32,143 bases of DNA from Granulosicoccaceae bacterium (GTDB taxonomy: Bacteria; Pseudomonadota; Gammaproteobacteria; Granulosicoccales; Granulosicoccaceae): assembly GCA_020629835.1 (NCBI GenBank), contig JAHDCO010000045.1:1-32143 (forward strand), in the 5' to 3' direction. The position numbers were made by a program, and so were the translations under genes. The notes under the pieces were generated by a model. That model was given only the letters and a program-made list of their open reading frames with translations. It had not been told where the DNA came from and did not search any database. Shown here piece by piece: positions 1,314 to 30,028 of the stretch; positions within the stretch are counted from its first letter, which is position 1; each line of letters starts with the position of its first letter.

Positions 1314-2377
1314 GATGCTGCTCCAGGATTAGATGCTTTTAACGTGGCTCGGATTGGCGTCTGCACAGTAGAGTTATTGGTTCCAGATGTTGAAAACACC
1401 GACGATTCACGTTGTTGGTTATCAGAAAGTGGTGATATTTCTGCGGTAGTTTGATCAGGGTCAGGATCCGCATCAGGTTCAGTACTTAACTCAGAGCGCA
1501 CTGATTTTGCGGGGTAAACGGTGGTGGGCAACTGATTTTTTGGTGTAGGATTTCCCGCATTTTGTAACGCGAGTTTTTTAGATCGAGACGTCAAAAACTC
1601 TACCAGGTGGTTTCGTGTTTCGTAGTACGCCGGGTGGTGAATAATGTCCCCTCGATTTCTTGGTCGCGGGATATCGATGACCACACTTTCCGCTACAGTA
1701 GCCATCGGACCGTTACTCATCAGAAGTATGCGATCCGCCAACAACATGGCTTCATCCACGTCGTGAGTAATCATAAAGACGGTCTGATCAGAGCCCGACC
1801 ATACTTCGATAAGCTGATCCTGAATGGTGCCGCGCGTTAACGCGTCTAATGCACCAAACGGCTCATCCAATAAAAGCAACTTAGGTTGAATCGCAAATGC
1901 TCGTGCAATGGAAACACGTTGCCGCATACCGCCTGATAATTGCGCAGGCTTACGATGTTCGGCACCGTCAACTAACCCCACTTGTTTCAAATGCTTATAG
2001 GCATGCGCGCGAACTTGTTTTCGAGTCCAATCCGGATAACGTGCCTTCACACCAAATATCACGTTATTTAATGCACTCATCCAAGGTAGCAACGAATAAT
2101 TCTGAAACACAACACCGCGGTCAAGACTGGGGCCACTGATTTCCTGGTTGTCCATAATGACAGCGCCATCAGAAGCCTTATCCAGGCCAGCTAGGATATT
2201 CATAATGGTGGATTTGCCACAGCCAGAGTGGCCGATGATGCAAACAAACTCACCACGCTTAATTTCAAAATTGGCGTTTTCGAAAACGGTTAGCTGCCCG
2301 TCTCCATCCGGGCTCGGGTATTGCCGAGTCAGGTTTTGAATACGAAGCAGAGGACTTTGATCAGAGGAATCATTCAT
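1310..2377 (-). CDS. cynD: ABC transporter ATPase, nitrate/cyanate type, with long C-terminal tail
   Basis: This is the ATP-hydrolysing subunit of a nitrate/sulfonate/cyanate-family importer (NrtD/CynD/SsuB-like). Counting from the ATG at 2377: Walker A GHSGCGKST at 49-57, Q-loop near FQNYSLLPW, signature LSGGMRQR at 147-154, Walker B LLLLDEP at 167-173, H-loop His205. I chose 2377 because the upstream ATG at 2407 adds a basic stretch lying inside the permease gene, whereas 2377 starts at the family-typical place and overlaps the permease stop by 8 nt (ATGAATGA). After ~residue 265 there is a tail of ~90 residues rich in Ser, Thr, Pro, Asp and Gln that NrtD/SsuB proteins normally lack; it has no domain I recognise. 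The substrate call rests on the adjacent cyanase; the symbol is by context. Confidence 0.9.
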   Translation of the reverse strand: MNDSSDQSPLLRIQNLTRQYPSPDGDGQLTVFENANFEIKRGEFVCIIGHSGCGKSTIMNILAGLDKASDGAVIMDNQEISGPSLDRGVVFQNYSLLPWMSALNNVIFGVKARYPDWTRKQVRAHAYKHLKQVGLVDGAEHRKPAQLSGGMRQRVSIARAFAIQPKLLLLDEPFGALDALTRGTIQDQLIEVWSGSDQTVFMITHDVDEAMLLADRILLMSNGPMATVAESVVIDIPRPRNRGDIIHHPAYYETRNHLVEFLTSRSKKLALQNAGNPTPKNQLPTTVYPAKSVRSELSTEPDADPDPDQTTAEISPLSDNQQRESSVFSTSGTNNSTVQTPIRATLKASNPGAAS

Positions 2378-3194
2378 GGTAAGCCACCACTTTTTGAACC
2401 TGTGCAAATATGGTGTCTAACAGCATGCCCACAACACCAATTACAAGGATCGAAAAAATTACGCTGGTTAAGTCAAGGTTATTCCACTCATTCCAAACGT
2501 AGTAACCCACACCCGTCCCCCCAACTAACATTTCAGCGGCCACAATAACCAGCCAGGCAATGCCGATAGAAATACGCATACCTGTAAGAATGGTGGGCGC
2601 AGCCGCCGGTAGAATGACCGTCGCCGCCGTTTTGAGATTGCTCAGTTCATGCGTACGTGCAACATTCACCCAGTCTTGTCGCACATTGGCAACACCGAAA
2701 GCGGTGTTAATCAACATGGGCCAGATAGAACAAATAAAGATCACAAATATCGCCGATGCTTCACTGTCTTTGATGACAAATAGCGCCAGAGGCATCCATG
2801 CCAACGGTGAGATTGGCCTCAGTACTTGAATAAACGGATCTAACGCTTTGTACGCTAACGGTGACATCCCGATAAGGAAGCCCAGTGGAATCGCCACTAG
2901 TGCTGCAAAGAAATATCCCGACAAAACACGGTAAACTGAATACGCGACCTGGATGCCAATACCCTTATCGTTTGGGCCATTGTCATAAAATGGATCAGAC
3001 AATTCCTCAACAGCTTTAGCAGCGATGGCGGACGGAGGAGGAACGCGCGCCTCTTGAGACGCGCCTCCCATCAACAGTTCGTACTCCGTCATCTCCGCTG
3101 CGTCTTTAACAGTCGGCGTTATCCCTTCCCAGATACCCAGCACCGCAAACAACAGGATGAGTGACAGAATGGGCGCCTTCAGCGCATCAGACAT
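2370..3194 (-). CDS. cynB: ABC transporter permease, nitrate/cyanate type
   Basis: This 274-residue inner-membrane permease belongs to the NrtB/SsuC/TauC group of the binding-protein-dependent transport family. It has one N-terminal membrane helix (residues ~8-25), a periplasmic stretch of ~65 residues, then five or so membrane helices. The EAA cytoplasmic loop that docks with the ATPase is visible as VARTHELSNLKTAATVILPAAAPTILTGMRISIG. The C-terminal part LVIVAAEMLVGGTGVGYYVW is typical of the family. The gene starts 5 nt after the binding-protein stop and its own stop overlaps the ATPase start by 8 nt, so the subunits are made together. The substrate (cyanate, possibly nitrate or bicarbonate) is inferred from the operon. 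Confidence 0.92.
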   Translation of the reverse strand: MSDALKAPILSLILLFAVLGIWEGITPTVKDAAEMTEYELLMGGASQEARVPPPSAIAAKAVEELSDPFYDNGPNDKGIGIQVAYSVYRVLSGYFFAALVAIPLGFLIGMSPLAYKALDPFIQVLRPISPLAWMPLALFVIKDSEASAIFVIFICSIWPMLINTAFGVANVRQDWVNVARTHELSNLKTAATVILPAAAPTILTGMRISIGIAWLVIVAAEMLVGGTGVGYYVWNEWNNLDLTSVIFSILVIGVVGMLLDTIFAQVQKVVAYHE

Positions 3195-3199
3195 TACGG

Positions 3200-4657
3200 T
3201 TAGCTACCTTTGCCGATAGCAAAGCTATCAACGTAGGCTTCAGGTTGATCAGGGTCAAACGTCTTACCCATGATTTCATAGCTCTGGTAGGTTTTGTTTG
3301 GAGTTTCCAGACCCAGGCTCTTCATGATGGACGTTGCATCGGCAGCGTTGTACACCTGCTCGGCAATGCCTTTGTAATCTACATCCCCTTCGATATAACC
3401 CCAGCGCTTCATTTGGGTCAGTATCCACACACCCATGGAGTGCCAGGGGAACGGATCAAAGTCAATTCTATCTGGTACATCTTTAATGTTGCCCAGACCA
3501 TCGGCGTAGCGTCCAGTTAACACTTGAGAGATAACCGGCACAGGTTGGTTCAAGTAATTTTTAGGAGCGATAGCTTCAGCAATCTCTGCACGATTTTCAG
3601 CAGGGCTTGCATATTGGGTCGCATCTATCAGTGCTTTAAGCAAATTGCCGTAGGTGTTGGGTAACGTTTCTGCAAACTCAGCGCTGCAGGCGAAGGCACA
3701 ACAAGGGTGACCATCCCAAATATCTTTTGTTAGCTTATGAATAAATCCAACCTTTTCCCAAACCGCTCTCTGGTTAAAGGGGTCTGGAGATAAATACCCA
3801 TCCAAGTTTCCGGCCCGCAAGTTAGCTACCATTTCCGGTGGTGGCACTACTCGAATTTGTATATCAACATCAGGGTCAAGACCAAACTCTGCAACGTAAT
3901 ATCGCAAAAGGAAGTTATGCATGGAATATTCGAATGGCACGCCAAACTTGAAACCCTTCCACTTACTCGGATCGTCGTTTTTATCCAAGTGATCGGTGTG
4001 TAAAACAATTGCTTGACCATTGATGTTTTCAACAGCCGGCATCAGATACGGTTCAGCAACAGAACCAGCGCCCATGGTGATGGCCAGTGGCATTGGTGTC
4101 AGCATGTGTGCGGCGTCGTACTCTTTATTCAGCGACTTATCACGAGCCACAGCCCAACCAGCCGTCTTTATGACATCTACATCCAAACCGTACTTTTCAT
4201 AAAAACCCAACGGTTTGGCCATGATGATAGGAGTAGCGCATGTAATCGGTACAAAGCCAACATTGAGCTTTGTTTTCTCTGGCTTTCCCAGAGACTCAGC
4301 AATGGCTGCCTTAGCAGCCTCCATTGGAAATATCGAACCCAAGGCTGCGGCCAACGTGCCACCACCCACCATCTTGGCAAACGCACGACGGCTTATTTCA
4401 TTGTGGCCAAACACCGATCGCACAACAGCGCTTTCTACCATGTGCGACAACGCTTCATCTGAATCCATAGCAGCGTGGTTTGGTTCGTCAAAATCGCGAT
4501 GTGGGGCAGCTTGCGCTGGTTCAACAAGCGCCTCTCGATGTTCATCACTGCCGGTGCTCGCGTGTTTGTGGTTCGAACAGGTATCGCAGGTACAGCTTTT
4601 CCCATGTCTTAAATCTACGTCGCCGTCGTATGGGTTTCCAAAACTCTTGATGGTCAT
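3200..4657 (-). CDS. cynA: CmpA/NrtA-family substrate-binding protein with Tat signal and Cys-rich leader
   Basis: Periplasmic solute-binding protein of the nitrate/cyanate/bicarbonate class, 485 residues from the ATG at 4657. That start is chosen because the ATG at 4720 lies almost exactly at the predicted sigma-54 transcription start, and the protein from 4657 opens with the family-like MTIKSFGNPYDGD. A twin-arginine motif SRRAFAK occurs unusually far in (residues 89-95), followed by a hydrophobic Gly/Ala segment and a likely cleavage after an Ala-rich stretch near 118. The leader before it holds C22-x-C24-x-x-C27 with His30 and His32, which looks like a possible metal or redox site. The mature part has the family fold with LNVGFVPITCATPIIMAKPLGFYEKYGL and the conserved PDPFNQRAVWEK. 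First gene of the operon. Confidence 0.92.
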   Translation of the reverse strand: MTIKSFGNPYDGDVDLRHGKSCTCDTCSNHKHASTGSDEHREALVEPAQAAPHRDFDEPNHAAMDSDEALSHMVESAVVRSVFGHNEISRRAFAKMVGGGTLAAALGSIFPMEAAKAAIAESLGKPEKTKLNVGFVPITCATPIIMAKPLGFYEKYGLDVDVIKTAGWAVARDKSLNKEYDAAHMLTPMPLAITMGAGSVAEPYLMPAVENINGQAIVLHTDHLDKNDDPSKWKGFKFGVPFEYSMHNFLLRYYVAEFGLDPDVDIQIRVVPPPEMVANLRAGNLDGYLSPDPFNQRAVWEKVGFIHKLTKDIWDGHPCCAFACSAEFAETLPNTYGNLLKALIDATQYASPAENRAEIAEAIAPKNYLNQPVPVISQVLTGRYADGLGNIKDVPDRIDFDPFPWHSMGVWILTQMKRWGYIEGDVDYKGIAEQVYNAADATSIMKSLGLETPNKTYQSYEIMGKTFDPDQPEAYVDSFAIGKGS

Positions 4658-4726
4658 AGTTTTCAGCCTGGTTGCACAGAAATTATTGGAATGATCGAAT
4701 CGCTGCCGATCTCCTCTCATACTGTT

Positions 4727-4745
4727 ATTCCACGCTTCGTGCCAA
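4727..4745 (-). promoter_or_regulatory. Candidate sigma-54 (-24/-12) promoter for the cyanate operon
   Basis: On the minus strand the stretch TTGGCACGAAGCGTGGAAT matches the sigma-54 consensus YTGGCACGrNNNTTGCW perfectly through the -24 element. The -12 element is GTGGA instead of TTGCA, so GG-N10-GG replaces GG-N10-GC. Predicted transcription starts near 4718, giving a ~60 nt leader before the ATG at 4657. A sigma-54 activator gene is immediately divergent, which supports the call; the -12 mismatch lowers confidence. Confidence 0.55.
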
Positions 4746-4814
4746 CCACTAGTAAATATTTATTTACCTTATTTATCAATAAGTTAAGATACTTTTGAGG
4801 GAATATTTTATTTA

Positions 4815-4820
4815 TATAAT
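4815..4820 (+). promoter_or_regulatory. Possible -10 element for the activator gene
   Basis: A perfect TATAAT lies 57 nt before the activator ATG in an AT-rich tract. No convincing -35 sits at 16-18 nt; the nearest candidate, TTGAGG at 4795-4800, has a 14 nt spacer. A weak sigma-70 promoter at best. Confidence 0.3.
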
Positions 4821-4822
4821 TT

Positions 4823-4848
4823 CGTAATTTTCATTTTTACGTAATTTT
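4823..4848. promoter_or_regulatory. Direct repeats CGTAATTTT, candidate enhancer (UAS)
   Basis: Two exact copies of CGTAATTTT occur at 4823-4831 and 4840-4848, offset by 17 nt (about 1.6 helical turns). They lie ~105-130 bp upstream of the predicted operon start site, the usual distance for enhancer-binding protein sites, and would also sit in the leader of the activator gene, allowing autoregulation. The surrounding AT-rich tract (4746-4860) makes chance repeats more likely. Confidence 0.35.
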
Positions 4849-4876
4849 TATTTACGATATTTGGTAAGGTGATCTC

Positions 4877-6868
4877 ATGGTTACCTCGACGCCGCCCAAG
4901 CAGAAAAAAACGCCTCACCGCGATTCTAAAAAAGCACCGCAAACATCCACTGGGAGCAACAACGCCGCATCGGCAGCCGATCCGATCGATCGCATGTTCG
5001 TGCATCGAACCCTGTATCAATGCTTTGGCTTATCGAAAGAACCTTGCTATCTGTTTGACCCTCACAGCGGGAACATCCTGCATGCCAACAAAGCTGCGGA
5101 ACGGTTTTTTCACAGGATAAAAGGCCTTGCTCACAACACGAAGATTGACCAACTTTATCCAAACAACGCAGATGCGCTGTTTGTCTTTACCGAAGAAGCG
5201 ATAGAGCTCGGAGAGGCATACACGCGACAATTAGAATGTTTAAGCCCCGACGGAAAAGTCATTCCCATCGAACACTCAGCCATTTCATGCAAATCGAAAG
5301 ATAAAACTGTTATTGCCGTTCGTTTAAATAATCTAGAAGCGCTGAAAAGACGCACCATTGAAGACGCATCACACCAATACGTTCGCGAAGGGTTACTTAC
5401 CTGGTTACGTGATGAGCAATATTTTCGTGATATCGAGCGTCAGTATCAATTGATACTGGGTGCTGCCGGAGAAGGCATTTACGGTATCGCTATCGATGGT
5501 AAGACAACATTCCTGAACCCCGCAGCGGAACGGATGCTGGGCTACAAAGCTCACGAATTAATCGGCAAACCCATGCACGACATGATTCACCATCACCGCC
5601 CCGATGGTCGTGAATATCCCCTGTGTGAATGCCCAATTTACAACGCATTTCAAAATCGACAAATCAATGCAGTAGATGATGAAGTGTTTTGGCGTAAGGA
5701 CGGTACGTCATTTGAGGTTGAGTACGTTTCAACACCCATAATTGATTCCGAAGAAGTTGTGGGTGCCGTCATCGTGTTTCGGGATGTTTCCTCTCGACGT
5801 GAAAATGAAAACTCGCTGCGCGATGCCTTGTTAGAAAATGCAGCGCTAAGAGAACGCTTAGAGATGGAGAACGCTTACTTACAGGAAGAAATTCTCAATC
5901 GTGATAACCACCACAACCTCATTGGTGTTTCAGAGTCTTTGAACACGTTGATTGCCCAAGTGGAGTTGGTCGCCCCAACCGATGCCAGTGTTTTAATCGG
6001 TGGGGAGAGCGGTACGGGAAAGGAATTGGTTGCGCACGCCATTCATCAAGCCTCTTCCCGAGCGGGTCGCCCGTTAATTCGCGTGAACTGTGCAGCGATT
6101 CCACCCGAGCTATTCGAAAGTGAAATTTTTGGCCATGTTAAAGGCTCCTTCTCGGGCGCTTTACGAGATCGAATTGGTCGCTTTGAGTTAGCGGACGGCG
6201 GCACATTATTTTTGGATGAAGTGGGTGAGCTTGACATCAAGCTGCAGGCTAAATTACTGCGCGTTGTTCAAGAAGGTCAATTCGAACGCGTGGGTGAAGA
6301 AAAATCTCGGCAGGTAGATGTACGACTGATAGCAGCTACGAACAGAGATTTGAAAATGGCGGTTGAAAACGATGAGTTCAGAGAAGATCTGTATTTTCGA
6401 TTGAATGTGTTTCCCATTGAATGTGTTCCATTACGCCAACGTGCTAGCGACATACCCGTATTGGCTGAACATTTTTTAGAAAAAAGCATAAAAAAACTTA
6501 ATTTACCGCCTTTAAGGTTAACGAAGGCCAACGTCAAGACGCTCATGCAATACGACTGGCCCGGCAACATTCGCGAGCTGCAAAATGTTATCGAGCGCGC
6601 AGCCATTGTCTCCAGAAATCAACGTTTAACCCTTGACCTGCCTGGAGGCACGCGAGCGATATCAGCGGCCACCTCCTCTGATGAAAAACTAGATGATCCA
6701 GAAACCATTTTAGACGCTAAGCAAATGCTGGCGTTCGAGCAACAGAATCTAGCCAGAGCGCTGAAAGCCTGTGGTGGGAAAGTGTCAGGCCCAAAAGGCG
6801 CAGCAAACCTACTAGGCATGAAGCCCACGACGGTTTATTCCCGTATCAAACAGTGGGACTTAAAGTAA
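4877..6868 (+). CDS. Sigma-54-dependent transcriptional activator with two PAS domains
   Basis: This 663-residue enhancer-binding protein probably activates the divergent cyanate operon. Order: variable polar N-terminus (1-40), PAS ~45-150, PAS ~185-305 (with the CECPIYNAF segment and FWRKDGTSFEVEY), a coiled coil ~305-342, AAA+ domain ~345-580, Fis-type helix-turn-helix ~615-660 (GPKGAANLLGMKPTTVYSRI). Key AAA+ motifs: Walker A GESGTGKE 376-383, sigma-54 contact loop GSFSGA 423-428 (usual form GAFTGA), Walker B GTLFLDE 442-448, WPGNIREL 561-568. It has no receiver domain, so the signal is sensed directly through PAS rather than by phosphorylation. The ATG is preceded by AAGGTGAT, a good ribosome site. 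The ligand is unknown; cyanate or a redox/nitrogen cue are guesses. Confidence 0.95.
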   Translation: MVTSTPPKQKKTPHRDSKKAPQTSTGSNNAASAADPIDRMFVHRTLYQCFGLSKEPCYLFDPHSGNILHANKAAERFFHRIKGLAHNTKIDQLYPNNADALFVFTEEAIELGEAYTRQLECLSPDGKVIPIEHSAISCKSKDKTVIAVRLNNLEALKRRTIEDASHQYVREGLLTWLRDEQYFRDIERQYQLILGAAGEGIYGIAIDGKTTFLNPAAERMLGYKAHELIGKPMHDMIHHHRPDGREYPLCECPIYNAFQNRQINAVDDEVFWRKDGTSFEVEYVSTPIIDSEEVVGAVIVFRDVSSRRENENSLRDALLENAALRERLEMENAYLQEEILNRDNHHNLIGVSESLNTLIAQVELVAPTDASVLIGGESGTGKELVAHAIHQASSRAGRPLIRVNCAAIPPELFESEIFGHVKGSFSGALRDRIGRFELADGGTLFLDEVGELDIKLQAKLLRVVQEGQFERVGEEKSRQVDVRLIAATNRDLKMAVENDEFREDLYFRLNVFPIECVPLRQRASDIPVLAEHFLEKSIKKLNLPPLRLTKANVKTLMQYDWPGNIRELQNVIERAAIVSRNQRLTLDLPGGTRAISAATSSDEKLDDPETILDAKQMLAFEQQNLARALKACGGKVSGPKGAANLLGMKPTTVYSRIKQWDLK

Positions 6869-6997: not shown

Positions 6998-8146
6998 ATG
7001 AACAATCCGAGCGACTTCGGCTTCGGCACGCAAATCCGCAAGTCTCCATTCTTTGATGCCACGGTGCGTTGGGGCGCGAAAGACTTTTCGGTGTACAACC
7101 ACATGTACATCCCCAGAGACTTCGGTAACCCAGAAGAGAATTTTTGGAACCTGGTCAATACCGCCATCTTGTGTGACGTGGCGGTGGAGCGACAAGTCGA
7201 GGTCACAGGTCCCGATGCGGCCGAATTTGTTCAGCGCCTTACACCGAGAAATTTATCCACCATGGCTGTAGGCCAGTGTAAGTACATACTCATAACCAAT
7301 GCCGACGGCGGAATTCTAAACGACCCGATTTTATTGCGACTGGCTGAGAATCATTTTTGGATTTCATTAGCGGATAGCGACATACTGCTGTGGGCGCAAG
7401 GGGTGGCTGTTAATTCGGGTTTAGACGTTACCTTGCGAGAGCCGGATGTCTCTCCTCTACAATTGCAGGGCCCAAGATCAACTGACGTTATGGTTTCGTT
7501 GTTTGGCCCGGAAATCCAACAGTTAAAGTACTACTGGTTAACACGCGTTGAACTGGATGGCTTTGAACTCGTCGTGTCTCGTACGGGTTGGTCAAGCGAA
7601 GTGGGTTATGAAATTTACCTGCAGGATGGCTCGCGCGGCGGGGAACTGTGGGACAAAATCATGGCGGCAGGACAACCTTATGATTTAAAACCCGGTCACA
7701 CCTCCTCCATCCGGCGCATCGAGGGCGGCATGCTGTCCTATCACGCGGATGCCGACAACCAAACTAATCCATTTGAATTGGGATTGGACAGGCTGGTGGA
7801 TTTAGAGATGGATGCAGACTTCATCGGGAAGTCAGCGCTTAAGGCGATAAGCGCTACCGGGGTTAAGCGCAAACAAGTCGGGTTGATTATTGGTGGTGAC
7901 CCGTTAACCGGGCCTAACACGACTTTCTGGCCGGTCTTGAAGGATGGCAAGACGGTGGGAAAAGTCACCTCAGCAGTCTATTCACCTCGGTTGGAAAAGA
8001 ATATTGCCCTGGCAATGGTTGCCACGCCGTGCGCCGAACTAGATTTGCCATTGAGCGTGGACACATCAACCGAGGTTCGCCCTGCCATGGTTACCCGAAC
8101 CCCGTTTTACGATCCTAAAAAACGAATTACCTCGGCCTCTTTATAA
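6998..8146 (+). CDS. DmdA-like aminomethyltransferase-fold protein, candidate DMSP demethylase
   Basis: This 382-residue protein has the GcvT (glycine cleavage T-protein) fold, and from memory of the family it resembles dimethylsulfoniopropionate demethylase DmdA more than GcvT. Shared landmarks: YNHMYIPRDF near the N-terminus, VERQVEVTGPDAAEFVQRLTPR, MAVGQCKYI, GGILNDPILL, WISLADSDILLWAQG and the C-terminal GLDRLV/FIGKSAL. GcvT has a catalytic Asp in a GG..DD context; this protein has GGILNDP, as DmdA does. DmdA transfers a methyl group from DMSP to tetrahydrofolate, leaving methylmercaptopropionate. The only in-frame start after the upstream stop is the ATG at 6998, with a poor ribosome site. 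It could instead demethylate another methylated amine or sulfonium. dmdB, dmdC and dmdD are not nearby. Confidence 0.65.
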   Translation: MNNPSDFGFGTQIRKSPFFDATVRWGAKDFSVYNHMYIPRDFGNPEENFWNLVNTAILCDVAVERQVEVTGPDAAEFVQRLTPRNLSTMAVGQCKYILITNADGGILNDPILLRLAENHFWISLADSDILLWAQGVAVNSGLDVTLREPDVSPLQLQGPRSTDVMVSLFGPEIQQLKYYWLTRVELDGFELVVSRTGWSSEVGYEIYLQDGSRGGELWDKIMAAGQPYDLKPGHTSSIRRIEGGMLSYHADADNQTNPFELGLDRLVDLEMDADFIGKSALKAISATGVKRKQVGLIIGGDPLTGPNTTFWPVLKDGKTVGKVTSAVYSPRLEKNIALAMVATPCAELDLPLSVDTSTEVRPAMVTRTPFYDPKKRITSASL

Positions 8147-8526: not shown

Positions 8527-8551
8527 AACCCACCCCTTTAGGTGGGGTTTT
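8527..8551 (+). terminator. Terminator-like hairpin between convergent genes
   Basis: CCCACC (8529-8534) pairs with GGTGGG (8541-8546) and is followed by GTTTT on the plus strand, so it would stop rightward transcription from the DmdA-like side. It overlaps the stop codon of the response regulator; read leftward, it forms a similar hairpin without a T-run. Confidence 0.4.
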
Positions 8552-9173
8552 CAGAGCCGAGCCCACAATCTATCGCGCAACGAATCAGCGCAGGCATCGA
8601 ATTTAAGCCCAGTTTTTTCTTAATATTGCGCCGGTGGGTTTCTACCGTTCGCGGGCTGATGTTCAGTTTAGCGGCGCTGGCCTTGCTGCTTAAGCCCTGA
8701 GCCAGCATGCCCAAAATGATTTGCTCTCGATCCGTAAGGGAATCGGTAGGAGAGGCCGGCTTGTTTACCAATGCATCGGCTACCGAAGGGCTGTAGTACA
8801 CCCCTCCAGAATGCACAGCTCGTATGGCATTCAGCATTTCCTCAGCCGATGCGCTTTTCAGAACATAACCACGAGCTCCCAGTTCAATTAGCTGGACAAC
8901 GTATTCTCTATCATCGTGCATGCTCAACACCAATATGATGGTGTCGGGCCGGACATCCATTATCGCTTCGGCCGCTTGAATACCATTTAAAACCGGCATG
9001 TTGATATCAAGCAACACCACCTCAGGGTTCAACTCCTGAACCTTTTCCAGTGCTTCCTGCCCATCACAAGCCTCACCCACCACCATCACTTCATCCGAAC
9101 GCGCAAAGCGCGAACGTAGCCCATCGCGCACCAATGGATGGTCATCAACAATCAACGTGCGAATGCAAGGCAT
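8538..9173 (-). CDS. NarL/LuxR-family response regulator
   Basis: This 211-residue two-component regulator has an N-terminal receiver (residues ~3-120; acidic pair in LIVDDH, phospho-acceptor Asp in VVLLDINMP, Lys in YVLKSAS) and a C-terminal LuxR-type helix-turn-helix (LTDREQIILGMLAQGLSSKASAAKLNISPRTVETHRRNI). I prefer the ATG at 9173 to a TTG at 9182, because the AGGA upstream is too close to the TTG. It lies 18 nt after the stop of the cognate kinase gene, so the two form one transcript. Its phosphorylated form should bind DNA as a dimer; targets are unknown, with the small ORF downstream as one candidate. Confidence 0.95.
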   Translation of the reverse strand: MPCIRTLIVDDHPLVRDGLRSRFARSDEVMVVGEACDGQEALEKVQELNPEVVLLDINMPVLNGIQAAEAIMDVRPDTIILVLSMHDDREYVVQLIELGARGYVLKSASAEEMLNAIRAVHSGGVYYSPSVADALVNKPASPTDSLTDREQIILGMLAQGLSSKASAAKLNISPRTVETHRRNIKKKLGLNSMPALIRCAIDCGLGSENPT

Positions 9174-9191
9174 GGTCAGCAAAATTCCTGT

Positions 9192-10571
9192 TTATTGACT
9201 CAAAGACAATGATGTTCGAGGTATGGAGGCTAACACCGTCGTGCCAGCTGCAGTCGACACGATATCGAACTTACCTTTGAAGTAATTGATGCGTTCGGAC
9301 ATATTACGCAGCCCTAACCCAAACTCATCAGGCTTTGTATGCTGCTTTCCATTTTTATCAAAGCCGATACCGTCATCTTGTATCGTAAGGTGAAATCCAT
9401 CTTTCTTTATCTCAAAAGCCACGTGCACTTTGTCCGCTTTTGAATGGCGTTCAATGTTTGACAAGGCCTCCTGGGTCACCCGGTACAACGCCGTTTTTGC
9501 TGACGTGTTCAATAAGTTTCGAAACGGTACCTTCGTTAAAGAAACCTCAATACCTGTGCGCCGAGAGAACTGCTCAACCAAGGACTCCACCGCAACCATC
9601 AATCCCAGATCATCCAGGATACTTGGGTGTAAGTCTCGGGACATACGACGCACTTCCATTAACGTATCATCCAACTGCGCTTCACTCGATCGTATTAATG
9701 AATCCGGGGCGGCATCGTGCTGGTCTGAATCGTGCGCTAACCTCGCCTCTTCCAGTGAATACTTAATCGCGACGAGGCGTTGGCTAATGCCATCGTGTAG
9801 CTCTCGCGAAACCCGCCTGCGCTCTTCGTCCTGCGTAGTCATGATGCGCTTGGTTAGCATCACAAGTTTTTGATCGGCCGAGCGTAGCTCGTTGATTTGA
9901 ACAGCTAAACCGCACAGCACGACAGCCACTACCGCAGCTGCCGCGATGGCCATCACCGAAAGAGAGGTTTCTTTGATTTGATTTTCAAACAAGGCATTAA
10001 GCGCTTGTAGTTGGCGATCGATATCATCGATGTACACCCCAGTGCCTACGATCCAATCCCAATCGGCAATCATTTCCGCATAACCGAGCTTTTTGGTAAT
10101 CTCGCCCGATGACGGTTGCTCCCACAGATAGTTCGTGTAGCCCCCGCCACTTTCAGCCTGTTCAATAAGATCCTGAATGATCAGCTGGCCTTCACTGTCA
10201 GCGAGATCCCACCAATTTTTACCCACTCGAAACGGTTGTTTCGGATGCACCAGATTCTCACCGTCAACACCGTAAACGAAAAAGTAACCGTCATCGGCAT
10301 AGGCTAATTTGGTCAGAATCGCCTTGGCCTCTTCGCGTTTTTGCTCTTCGGTCAAGTTGCTGTTGGTGAGCAGTGGCGTCAAGGAGGACTGCGCGAGCTG
10401 AGTGACCTTCACCAATTCCTCTTGATAGACGTTAAGCAACGCATCGTGAAATACATCAGACTGCTGCTCTGACAGTTGACGGATTTGGCTGTTCACCAGC
10501 AGCGAAACAATCAGCATGCCCAGTAACATGGGCACCACTGTCATTAGGACTATTTTCTGACGTAGGCTCAT
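9192..10571 (-). CDS. Single-Cache sensor histidine kinase (NarX-like catalytic core)
   Basis: Membrane sensor kinase, 459 residues from the ATG at 10571. Order: membrane helix (~5-27), periplasmic single-Cache domain (~35-195) with the characteristic DDGYFFVYGVDGENLVHP and GGGYTNYLWEQP, second membrane helix (~210-230), HisKA_3 dimerisation domain with the phospho-His in SRELHDGISQR, then HATPase_c (NIERHSKADKV, DDGIGFD, GLGLRNMSERI). Single-Cache domains of this kind often sense small organic acids. The frame extends to a GTG at 10712, but the extra 47 residues are Cys-rich, unlike the family, and precede an otherwise normal start at the first membrane helix. It pairs with the response regulator just downstream and is divergent from the helicase gene. 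Confidence 0.93.
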   Translation of the reverse strand: MSLRQKIVLMTVVPMLLGMLIVSLLVNSQIRQLSEQQSDVFHDALLNVYQEELVKVTQLAQSSLTPLLTNSNLTEEQKREEAKAILTKLAYADDGYFFVYGVDGENLVHPKQPFRVGKNWWDLADSEGQLIIQDLIEQAESGGGYTNYLWEQPSSGEITKKLGYAEMIADWDWIVGTGVYIDDIDRQLQALNALFENQIKETSLSVMAIAAAAVVAVVLCGLAVQINELRSADQKLVMLTKRIMTTQDEERRRVSRELHDGISQRLVAIKYSLEEARLAHDSDQHDAAPDSLIRSSEAQLDDTLMEVRRMSRDLHPSILDDLGLMVAVESLVEQFSRRTGIEVSLTKVPFRNLLNTSAKTALYRVTQEALSNIERHSKADKVHVAFEIKKDGFHLTIQDDGIGFDKNGKQHTKPDEFGLGLRNMSERINYFKGKFDIVSTAAGTTVLASIPRTSLSLSQ

Positions 10572-10815
10572 AGGGTGAGTATAGCGCCACGTCCCTTTGA
10601 CCACGTGTGCATCCGGTCCGGTTTCGTGGCTTTGAATGGATGTCGAGGAGGCGTCTAAGCGGCCGTCAGTACCCAGCGAACAAAAGCAGTTCGGCGGTAA
10701 GCAATCGAACACTGTAGACTAGCGCAGGCAGTACCTCTCTCCTTAGCGCACCAGCTTTTCATTACCAGCCCACAGCGCACACTTTTCCAACATCATTACG
10801 TTCGAGCACCTTATT

Positions 10816-29932: not shown

Positions 29933-30028
29933 GGTGCAAGTGCGGCTGCAAGTGCCGGTGCAAGTGCCGGTGCAAGTGCCGGTGCAAGTGCGGGTGCAAG
30001 TGCGGGTGCAAGTGCGGCTGCAAGTACG
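29933..30028. repeat. 12-bp minisatellite, eight units
   Basis: Eight head-to-tail copies of GGTGCAAGTGCS (first base pair GCT in units 2 and 8; last unit ends ACG) occupy exactly 96 bp between the oxidase stop and the hybrid kinase start. The reading frame of the kinase is open back through it to 29888, where it would encode a (Gly-Ala-Ser-Ala)n peptide, but no ATG, GTG or TTG precedes the repeat in that frame. The minus strand gives an Ala-Pro-Ala-Leu repeat. Confidence 0.97.

Follow-up and report, generated by a model that had tools for sequence, protein, structure and literature searches.

The DNA analysed here, a stretch of 32,143 nucleotides from a Granulosicoccaceae bacterium (the window), very probably holds a CynF-type cyanate switch, made up of a divergent activator gene, three palindromes and a sigma-54 promoter in front of a cyn operon. 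This reading draws on comparison of the window with the corresponding regions of other genomes. The comparison shows where the promoter lies, how many sites there are and how they are spaced, and that box and sites are missing from two Granulosicoccaceae operons with no activator alongside. In the mechanism we propose, the activator would bind the palindromes at 4812-4827, 4829-4844 and 4852-4867, and their fixed spacing would let about three dimers form an AAA+ ring near sigma-54 RNA polymerase at 4729-4744. The PAS part of the activator would sense cyanate or nitrogen shortage, upon which the cyn promoter would be opened, with its off-consensus -12 element presumably in use. The same sites, when occupied, may also curb the activator's own transcription.

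The cyn operon, the divergent activator gene and the predicted promoter

Five genes follow one another on the minus strand of the window, all in one direction: cynA, encoding a substrate-binding protein (3200-4657); a gene for an ABC permease of the NtrB/CynB type, recognized by domain and family matches (2370-3194); one for an ABC ATPase of the NtrC/D, CynD type (1310-2407, in the frame listed by the ORF program); cynS, whose product scores above both NCBIfam cyanase cut-offs (834-1313); and, last in the operon, a gene for a DUF1348 protein (317-829). The mechanical call that places the start of cynA at 4720 is probably wrong, judging by the conserved start, the ATG at 4657, and a start there gives a leader of about 61 nt. 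A sizeable share of the other cyn loci likewise have a DUF1348 (SnoaL-like) gene, as at 317-829, in the neighbourhood of cynS. Divergent from cynA, on the plus strand, lies the CynF-type activator gene (4877-6868), with a PAS domain, a sigma-54 AAA+ domain carrying the loop GSFSGA, and a putative Fis-type helix-turn-helix (HTH). The AAA+ domain matches PF00158 at 8.7e-71 and has the Walker motifs GESGTGKE and TLFLDEVGE. The HTH reaches 21.2 bits against PF02954, for which the cut-off is 22, and three C-terminal helices are present in the structure model. The top NCBIfam model for the whole protein is NorR, below its cut-off (372.8 of 476 bits). From the secondary structure of the AlphaFold model (mean pLDDT 79.6, pTM 0.43), which we used for the domain outline only, there is a suggestion of a second N-terminal PAS-like fold at about 36-152.

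A sequence-only reading of this DNA had proposed a perfect -24 element with GG-N10-GG spacing on the minus strand, and it is indeed found at 4745-4726 (TTGGCACGAAGCGTGGAATA). Within this segment, the sigma-54-type promoter TGGCACG-N4-GTGGA (4729-4744, minus strand) has 2 mismatches to TGGCACGN4TTGCA; its second GG sits at the sigma-54 GC position, and the transcription start is predicted at about 4718. Of the -24/-12 element that had been proposed, the first half therefore stands as consensus, and the -12 half turns out to be off consensus. Sigma-54 promoters are marked by GG and TGC elements, according to the available part of PMC3844500. The window has the GG at -24, within its TGGCAC box, and has TGG in place of TGC at -12, and because of that substitution we call the promoter sigma-54-type by position rather than a consensus member.

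Taken by itself, the window lifts the promoter and the repeats upstream of it only partly beyond chance. With up to 3 mismatches allowed, 39 occurrences of the promoter pattern are expected in the window and 30 are found, of which three have 2 mismatches. At 10 or more of 12 the window has 4 matches, and five shuffled versions of it have 4, 6, 11, 7 and 8. What is unusual is such a match so close to cynA: only 7 of 2000 shuffles produced one of 10 in the 220 nt ahead of the gene. We accept the promoter reading because the -24 box is conserved in place relative to the three palindromes in all six Granulosicoccus loci that have a divergent activator, the window included. Each of the six keeps TGGCA(C/T)(A/G)AA-N2-(A/G)TG(G/A)A in the same place.

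One might ask whether the Granulosicoccus promoter is instead decaying, that is, weak or silent after the loss of the -12 C, with an operon that is little used. The -12 letter itself (G in five of the six loci, A in the sixth) and the degenerate state of two of the window's palindromes, sites II and III, would fit such decay, but all six loci retain the -24 box, the G at -13, the three palindromes and the genes of the operon, and we regard decay as unlikely. A CynF-type switch with a working promoter is the reading that we carry forward.

Three palindromes in the window and across loci

Upstream of the promoter, on the minus strand, we predict three activator sites, scored against a consensus that is a 16-bp palindrome, TTACGA-N4-TCGTAA. 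Site I (TTACCAAATATCGTAA, 4852-4867) agrees with it at 11 of 12 positions and is centred 115 nt upstream of the T of TGGCAC. Site II (TTACGTAAAAATGAAA, 4829-4844) is degenerate, with 8 of 12, and has its centre at 92 nt; site III (TTACGAAATTATATAA, 4812-4827) has 9 of 12 and its centre at 75 nt. The sequence-only reading had seen the enhancer as exact direct repeats about 105-130 bp upstream of the start, and both copies of CGTAATTTT on the plus strand (4823-4831 and 4840-4848) are exact and fall at that distance from 4718, where the start is predicted. Enhancer-like sites are thus present, in a different form: there are three palindromes, and the repeats are half-sites of two of them, copy 1 holding the TTACG half-site of site III and copy 2 that of site II. 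The third palindrome, site I, had been missed; it lies outside the range then considered, 4727-4848, and ends 9 bp ahead of the activator ATG. The direct repeats as a functional unit are rejected, since 538 of 2000 shuffles of the AT-rich gap hold an exact 9-mer direct repeat. Site III also overlaps a TATAAT at 4815-4820 (plus strand), read by eye and absent from the sigma-70 scan list, which may serve the activator gene as its -10 box. Such an overlap would explain the degenerate arm of site III and may point to autoregulation.

For comparison, we took cynA loci from one scan of genome contigs, keeping the best 80 of at least 539 confirmed. Four of these (L039-L042) were left out as duplicates of L151, L154, L152 and L150, and the window, the Granulosicoccaceae stretches L149-L155 and five others (L158, L159, L160, L162 and L164) were added. 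The resulting 89 upstream regions comprise 73 where a match to the activator lies divergent and no more than 1 kb away, among them L164, which has cynS in place of cynA, and 16 where none does. Among Pseudomonadaceae, an activator match was found in 33 of 398 genomes, and 31 loci were examined (L185-L187 and L191-L218): 11 have cynA adjoining, 19 have a nitC match and L217 has neither. The 11 Pseudomonadaceae cyn loci and the 73 together give 84 loci with a divergent activator (cyn or cynS). The search for the array left its position free within 500 nt, allowed spacings of 16-18 and 21-23 bp, and used 60 mononucleotide shuffles, which preserve base content only.

The three-palindrome array exceeds all 60 shuffles in 82 of the 84 loci, a count to be read with the facts that the set includes the best 80 of at least 539 cynA loci, that many of the loci counted had themselves contributed to the consensus, and that many are close kin. 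The Pseudomonadaceae were fetched after the consensus had been fixed, and 11 of their 11 cyn loci pass. In the two remaining loci, L087 and L093, a divergent activator is present, yet no array rises above the shuffles. Spacing is narrowly held, at 17/22 in 48 of the 82, 17/23 in 23, 17/21 in 5, 18/22 in 4, and 18/21 and 16/22 in 1 each. As for the distance between the T of TGGCAC and the centre of the nearest site, 64 of the 82 loci have 72-78 nt, 11 have 62-64, 1 has 80, 3 have 88-89 and 1 has 99; the other two loci are L118, which has no convincing -24 box, and L191, where the box was wrongly picked. Box picks in this comparison were required to hold TGG; picking by best score alone went wrong, for example in L059, L066 and L072. 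An earlier test, with the sites fixed relative to the -24 box, gave values below 0.05 against local shuffles in 68 of the 73 loci; the other five are L075, with sites at 62/79/101, L115, with weak sites at 64/81/104, and L078, L087 and L118.

These distances also bear on a second possibility, that the palindromes serve mainly as an operator through which the activator represses itself, and that the operon is driven by another regulator or by a sigma-70 promoter. The closeness of site I to the activator ATG and the overlap of site III with the TATAAT would suit such an operator. But the array keeps its distance to the box in most loci, whereas the start codon may be as near as 67 nt to the -24 box or as far as 274 nt from it (across the 82 loci whose box-array gap is 60-100 nt, which include L087 and L093 and leave aside L118 and L191). 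Moreover, sigma-70-like matches around the gap are near chance (2 found, 1.4 expected), and the published cynF mutant loses rather than gains cyanase activity, as given in the available part of PMC6627978. We therefore think it improbable that self-repression is the main role of the palindromes, and prefer an enhancer for the CynF-type activator.

Loci that lack an adjoining activator offer the complementary view. Some cynA match is present in 27 of the order's 48 genomes and a close one in 9, the window's own included. Six of these operons, the window's and L149-L153, have a divergent activator, and all belong to the window's genus. Two others, L154 from the same family and L155 from the same genus, show no activator in the 13-16 kb fetched, and upstream of their operons there is neither the array nor the -24 box; the ninth close cynA operon, L156, is cut off. 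More widely, among the 16 loci where no divergent activator lies within 1 kb, 14 have no array in the region tested, and L080 and L104 do have one. In L104 an activator match lies 6 kb off. A -24/-12 match of at least 10 occurs in 4 of the 16 (L080, L104, L105 and L114), and L114 has an upstream activator in the same direction and no array. The palindromes are also unlike the NtrC site, which is TGCACC-N5-GGTGCA. Repression of cynABDS by ammonium in Pseudomonas (PMC6627978, in the part available) might suggest that NtrC, through general nitrogen control, binds the enhancer as activator in place of the divergent protein. This is highly improbable, since array and divergent gene occur together: 82 of the 84 loci that have the gene carry the array, as do 2 of the 16 in which it is not directly adjoining (L080 and L104).

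With the divergent protein as activator, the mechanism in the sequence-only reading, a sigma-54 promoter with an upstream enhancer and a divergent PAS-type activator, is strongly supported by the comparison across genomes. The conservation in relatives that it proposed as a check is found for the -24 box (6 of 6) and for the array to which the repeats belong as half-sites (82 of 84 loci); at -12, all six Granulosicoccus loci have G or A. Several observations nevertheless count against a CynF-type switch: the -12 element departs from GC, sites II and III are degenerate, L087 and L093 lack the array and L118 the box, and a box-like match (L080, L104, L105 and L114) or an array (L080 and L104) can occur with no divergent activator within 1 kb.

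Some of these loci have features of their own. At L080 1-1300, ORFs that look transposase-like by eye occupy the activator's place, and the promoter and array remain. L162 is counted among the 14 loci without an array on the basis of its pre-cynS region; an array does lie ahead of the gene that pairs with its cynS. In L162 (6226-9846) and L164 (6465-10091), CynF-like activators lie divergent from a cynS unit with a formate/nitrite-transporter-like gene (by eye), with a promoter and three sites between the activator and the cynS unit; neither has a cynA match in 18 kb. The transporter-like gene is a candidate cyanate channel.

Relation to CynF, NitA and NorR

In Pseudomonas pseudoalcaligenes (= oleovorans) CECT5344, the divergent Fis-family sigma-54-type regulator CynF is essential for cynABDS, cyanate induces and ammonium represses the operon with the activator needed, a cynF mutant has no cyanase activity, and a putative sigma-54 site lies upstream of cynA (all from the available part of PMC6627978). 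The window shares with this system the divergent activator, the cyn gene order and the putative sigma-54 site ahead of cynA. A dedicated PAS-type activator had been taken by the sequence-only reading to be a distinct logic for cyanate operons; that claim falls, as CynF is already published (PMC6627978) and cyanate lyase is among the predicted sigma-54 targets enriched in alpha- and gammaproteobacteria, in the portion available of PMC12316311. The CynF-type switch is thus known as a kind, and what is new, as far as we have seen, is in the detail, namely the three-site geometry and the -12 of Granulosicoccus. We found no description of the CynF site in the open-licence literature searched.

The window differs from Pseudomonas-type cyn loci in its added DUF1348 gene, in having GG at the -12 element and in its loop, GSFSGA. 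In Pseudomonadaceae the -12 is GC, and the array lies about 12 bp nearer the box in 10 of 11 loci (62-63 vs 72-78, L198 being at 76). The activators of L191-L201 are 50-52% identical to that of the window. Longer stretches around L191 and L193 (L219 and L220), read by eye and with tblastn, have the order gltB-gltD-cynF, a 268-bp gap and cynABDS-hemE, and both carry the array; arrangement and gap equal the published ones of CECT5344, a likeness to the description in the available part of PMC6627978 rather than to the CECT5344 sequence.

NitA, a Fis-family sigma-54-dependent regulator divergent from nitBCDEFGH (PMC11049912, in the part available), offers a further parallel. The nit1C nitrilase cluster has a related activator (48-49% identity), a divergent operon and three similar palindromes upstream of the -24/-12, an array present in all three loci for which both strands were examined (L188, L189 and L190). 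It differs in its distances, 97/115/137 from the -24 box, and in its genes, which are for nitrilase and not cyanase. In 16 further nitC-match loci, scanned on one strand so that promoters lying the opposite way were missed, there is a part-array in L202, L208 and L210 and none in the rest. NorR, the best NCBIfam model for the window activator albeit below cut-off, has sites that differ in sequence from TTACGA-N4-TCGTAA. It too has three enhancer sites: those in the norR-norVW intergenic region are essential and act as a scaffold for the oligomer, and NorR differs from the PAS-bearing window activator in its GAF sensing domain and in its signal, nitric oxide (PMC2941729, in the part available). 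From our comparison come a binding motif for CynF that can be tested and, shared by alpha- and gammaproteobacteria, a rigid enhancer geometry of three sites. Both could be used for target finding, and together with NorR they raise the question of whether three fixed sites are a general seat for a ring-forming activator.

The -12 letter in Granulosicoccus and the history of the locus

Letters -13/-12 are GG in five and GA in one of the Granulosicoccus loci (n = 6 loci/species). Among the 67 other divergent loci they are GC in 65, counting L118 with its unconvincing box, and GA in 2 (L087 and L093). At the GAFTGA position, the loop reads GSFSGA in four of the six Granulosicoccus activators, including the window's, and GAFSGA in two; in the 67 other loci it has Thr in 57, Ser in 5 and is unreadable in 5. 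Since Ser also occurs in 5 other divergent loci that have GC at -12, the Ser of the window's loop would not conflict with a system that is still maintained. Those 5 loci, and 2 in which Thr goes with GA, leave no support for a strict link between Ser in the loop and a changed -12.

An altered RpoN is likewise unsupported: the RpoN of the genome is above the family cut-off, and the letters of its HTH (HESTISRVTTQKY) and RpoN box (ARRTVAKYRES) are identical to those of the solved sigma-54 chain 7qxi_M. Genome-wide, the strict TGC pattern occurs at 5 places vs 18 in a backward control, and two of the 5 immediately precede two pilin-like genes that neighbour a sigma-54-type regulator (genes read by eye). 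The TGGA pattern occurs at 10 places vs 7 in the control, and the nine besides the window's overlap a mechanical ORF of at least 70 aa. A genome-wide -12 shift in Granulosicoccus is unsupported, on thin evidence, as canonical TGC boxes exist upstream of the pilin-like genes. With the RpoN letters kept and these two TGC boxes in place, the -12 change looks local, on pattern counts too few for proof.

In a midpoint-rooted tree of 50 activators, the six from Granulosicoccus form one clade (100/100), which groups with Kiloniellaceae, Sneathiella and Filomicrobium (99/97) inside a larger alphaproteobacterial set (100/100). This grouping suggests that the cyn locus was transferred horizontally from alphaproteobacteria into Granulosicoccus. 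Because the Granulosicoccus activators are one clade, a joint change of loop and -12 would be one event or few, beyond test by counts. Dago et al. (2007) reportedly linked the GAFTGA loop to promoter DNA at -12. We find it tempting, if doubtful, to speculate that the -12 C to G/A and GAFTGA to G(S/A)FSGA changed together after entry into Granulosicoccus from alphaproteobacteria, such that the activator opens a non-consensus fork junction that others open poorly. If this were true, the joint change would be an example from nature of that connection between loop and -12 DNA. A genus-conserved off-consensus -12 beside a changed sigma-54-contacting loop is a natural test of how much sigma-54 promoters tolerate at -12.

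Elsewhere in the window, 6998-8146 encodes a GcvT-type protein near the dimethylsulfoniopropionate demethylase model, below its cut-off (369.7 of 410 bits), and 8538-10712 a response regulator and a Cache-domain kinase that are MctR/MctS-like, both below curated cut-offs. At 29947-29986, one 16-mer occurs in three copies at 12-bp steps, which points to a short tandem repeat.
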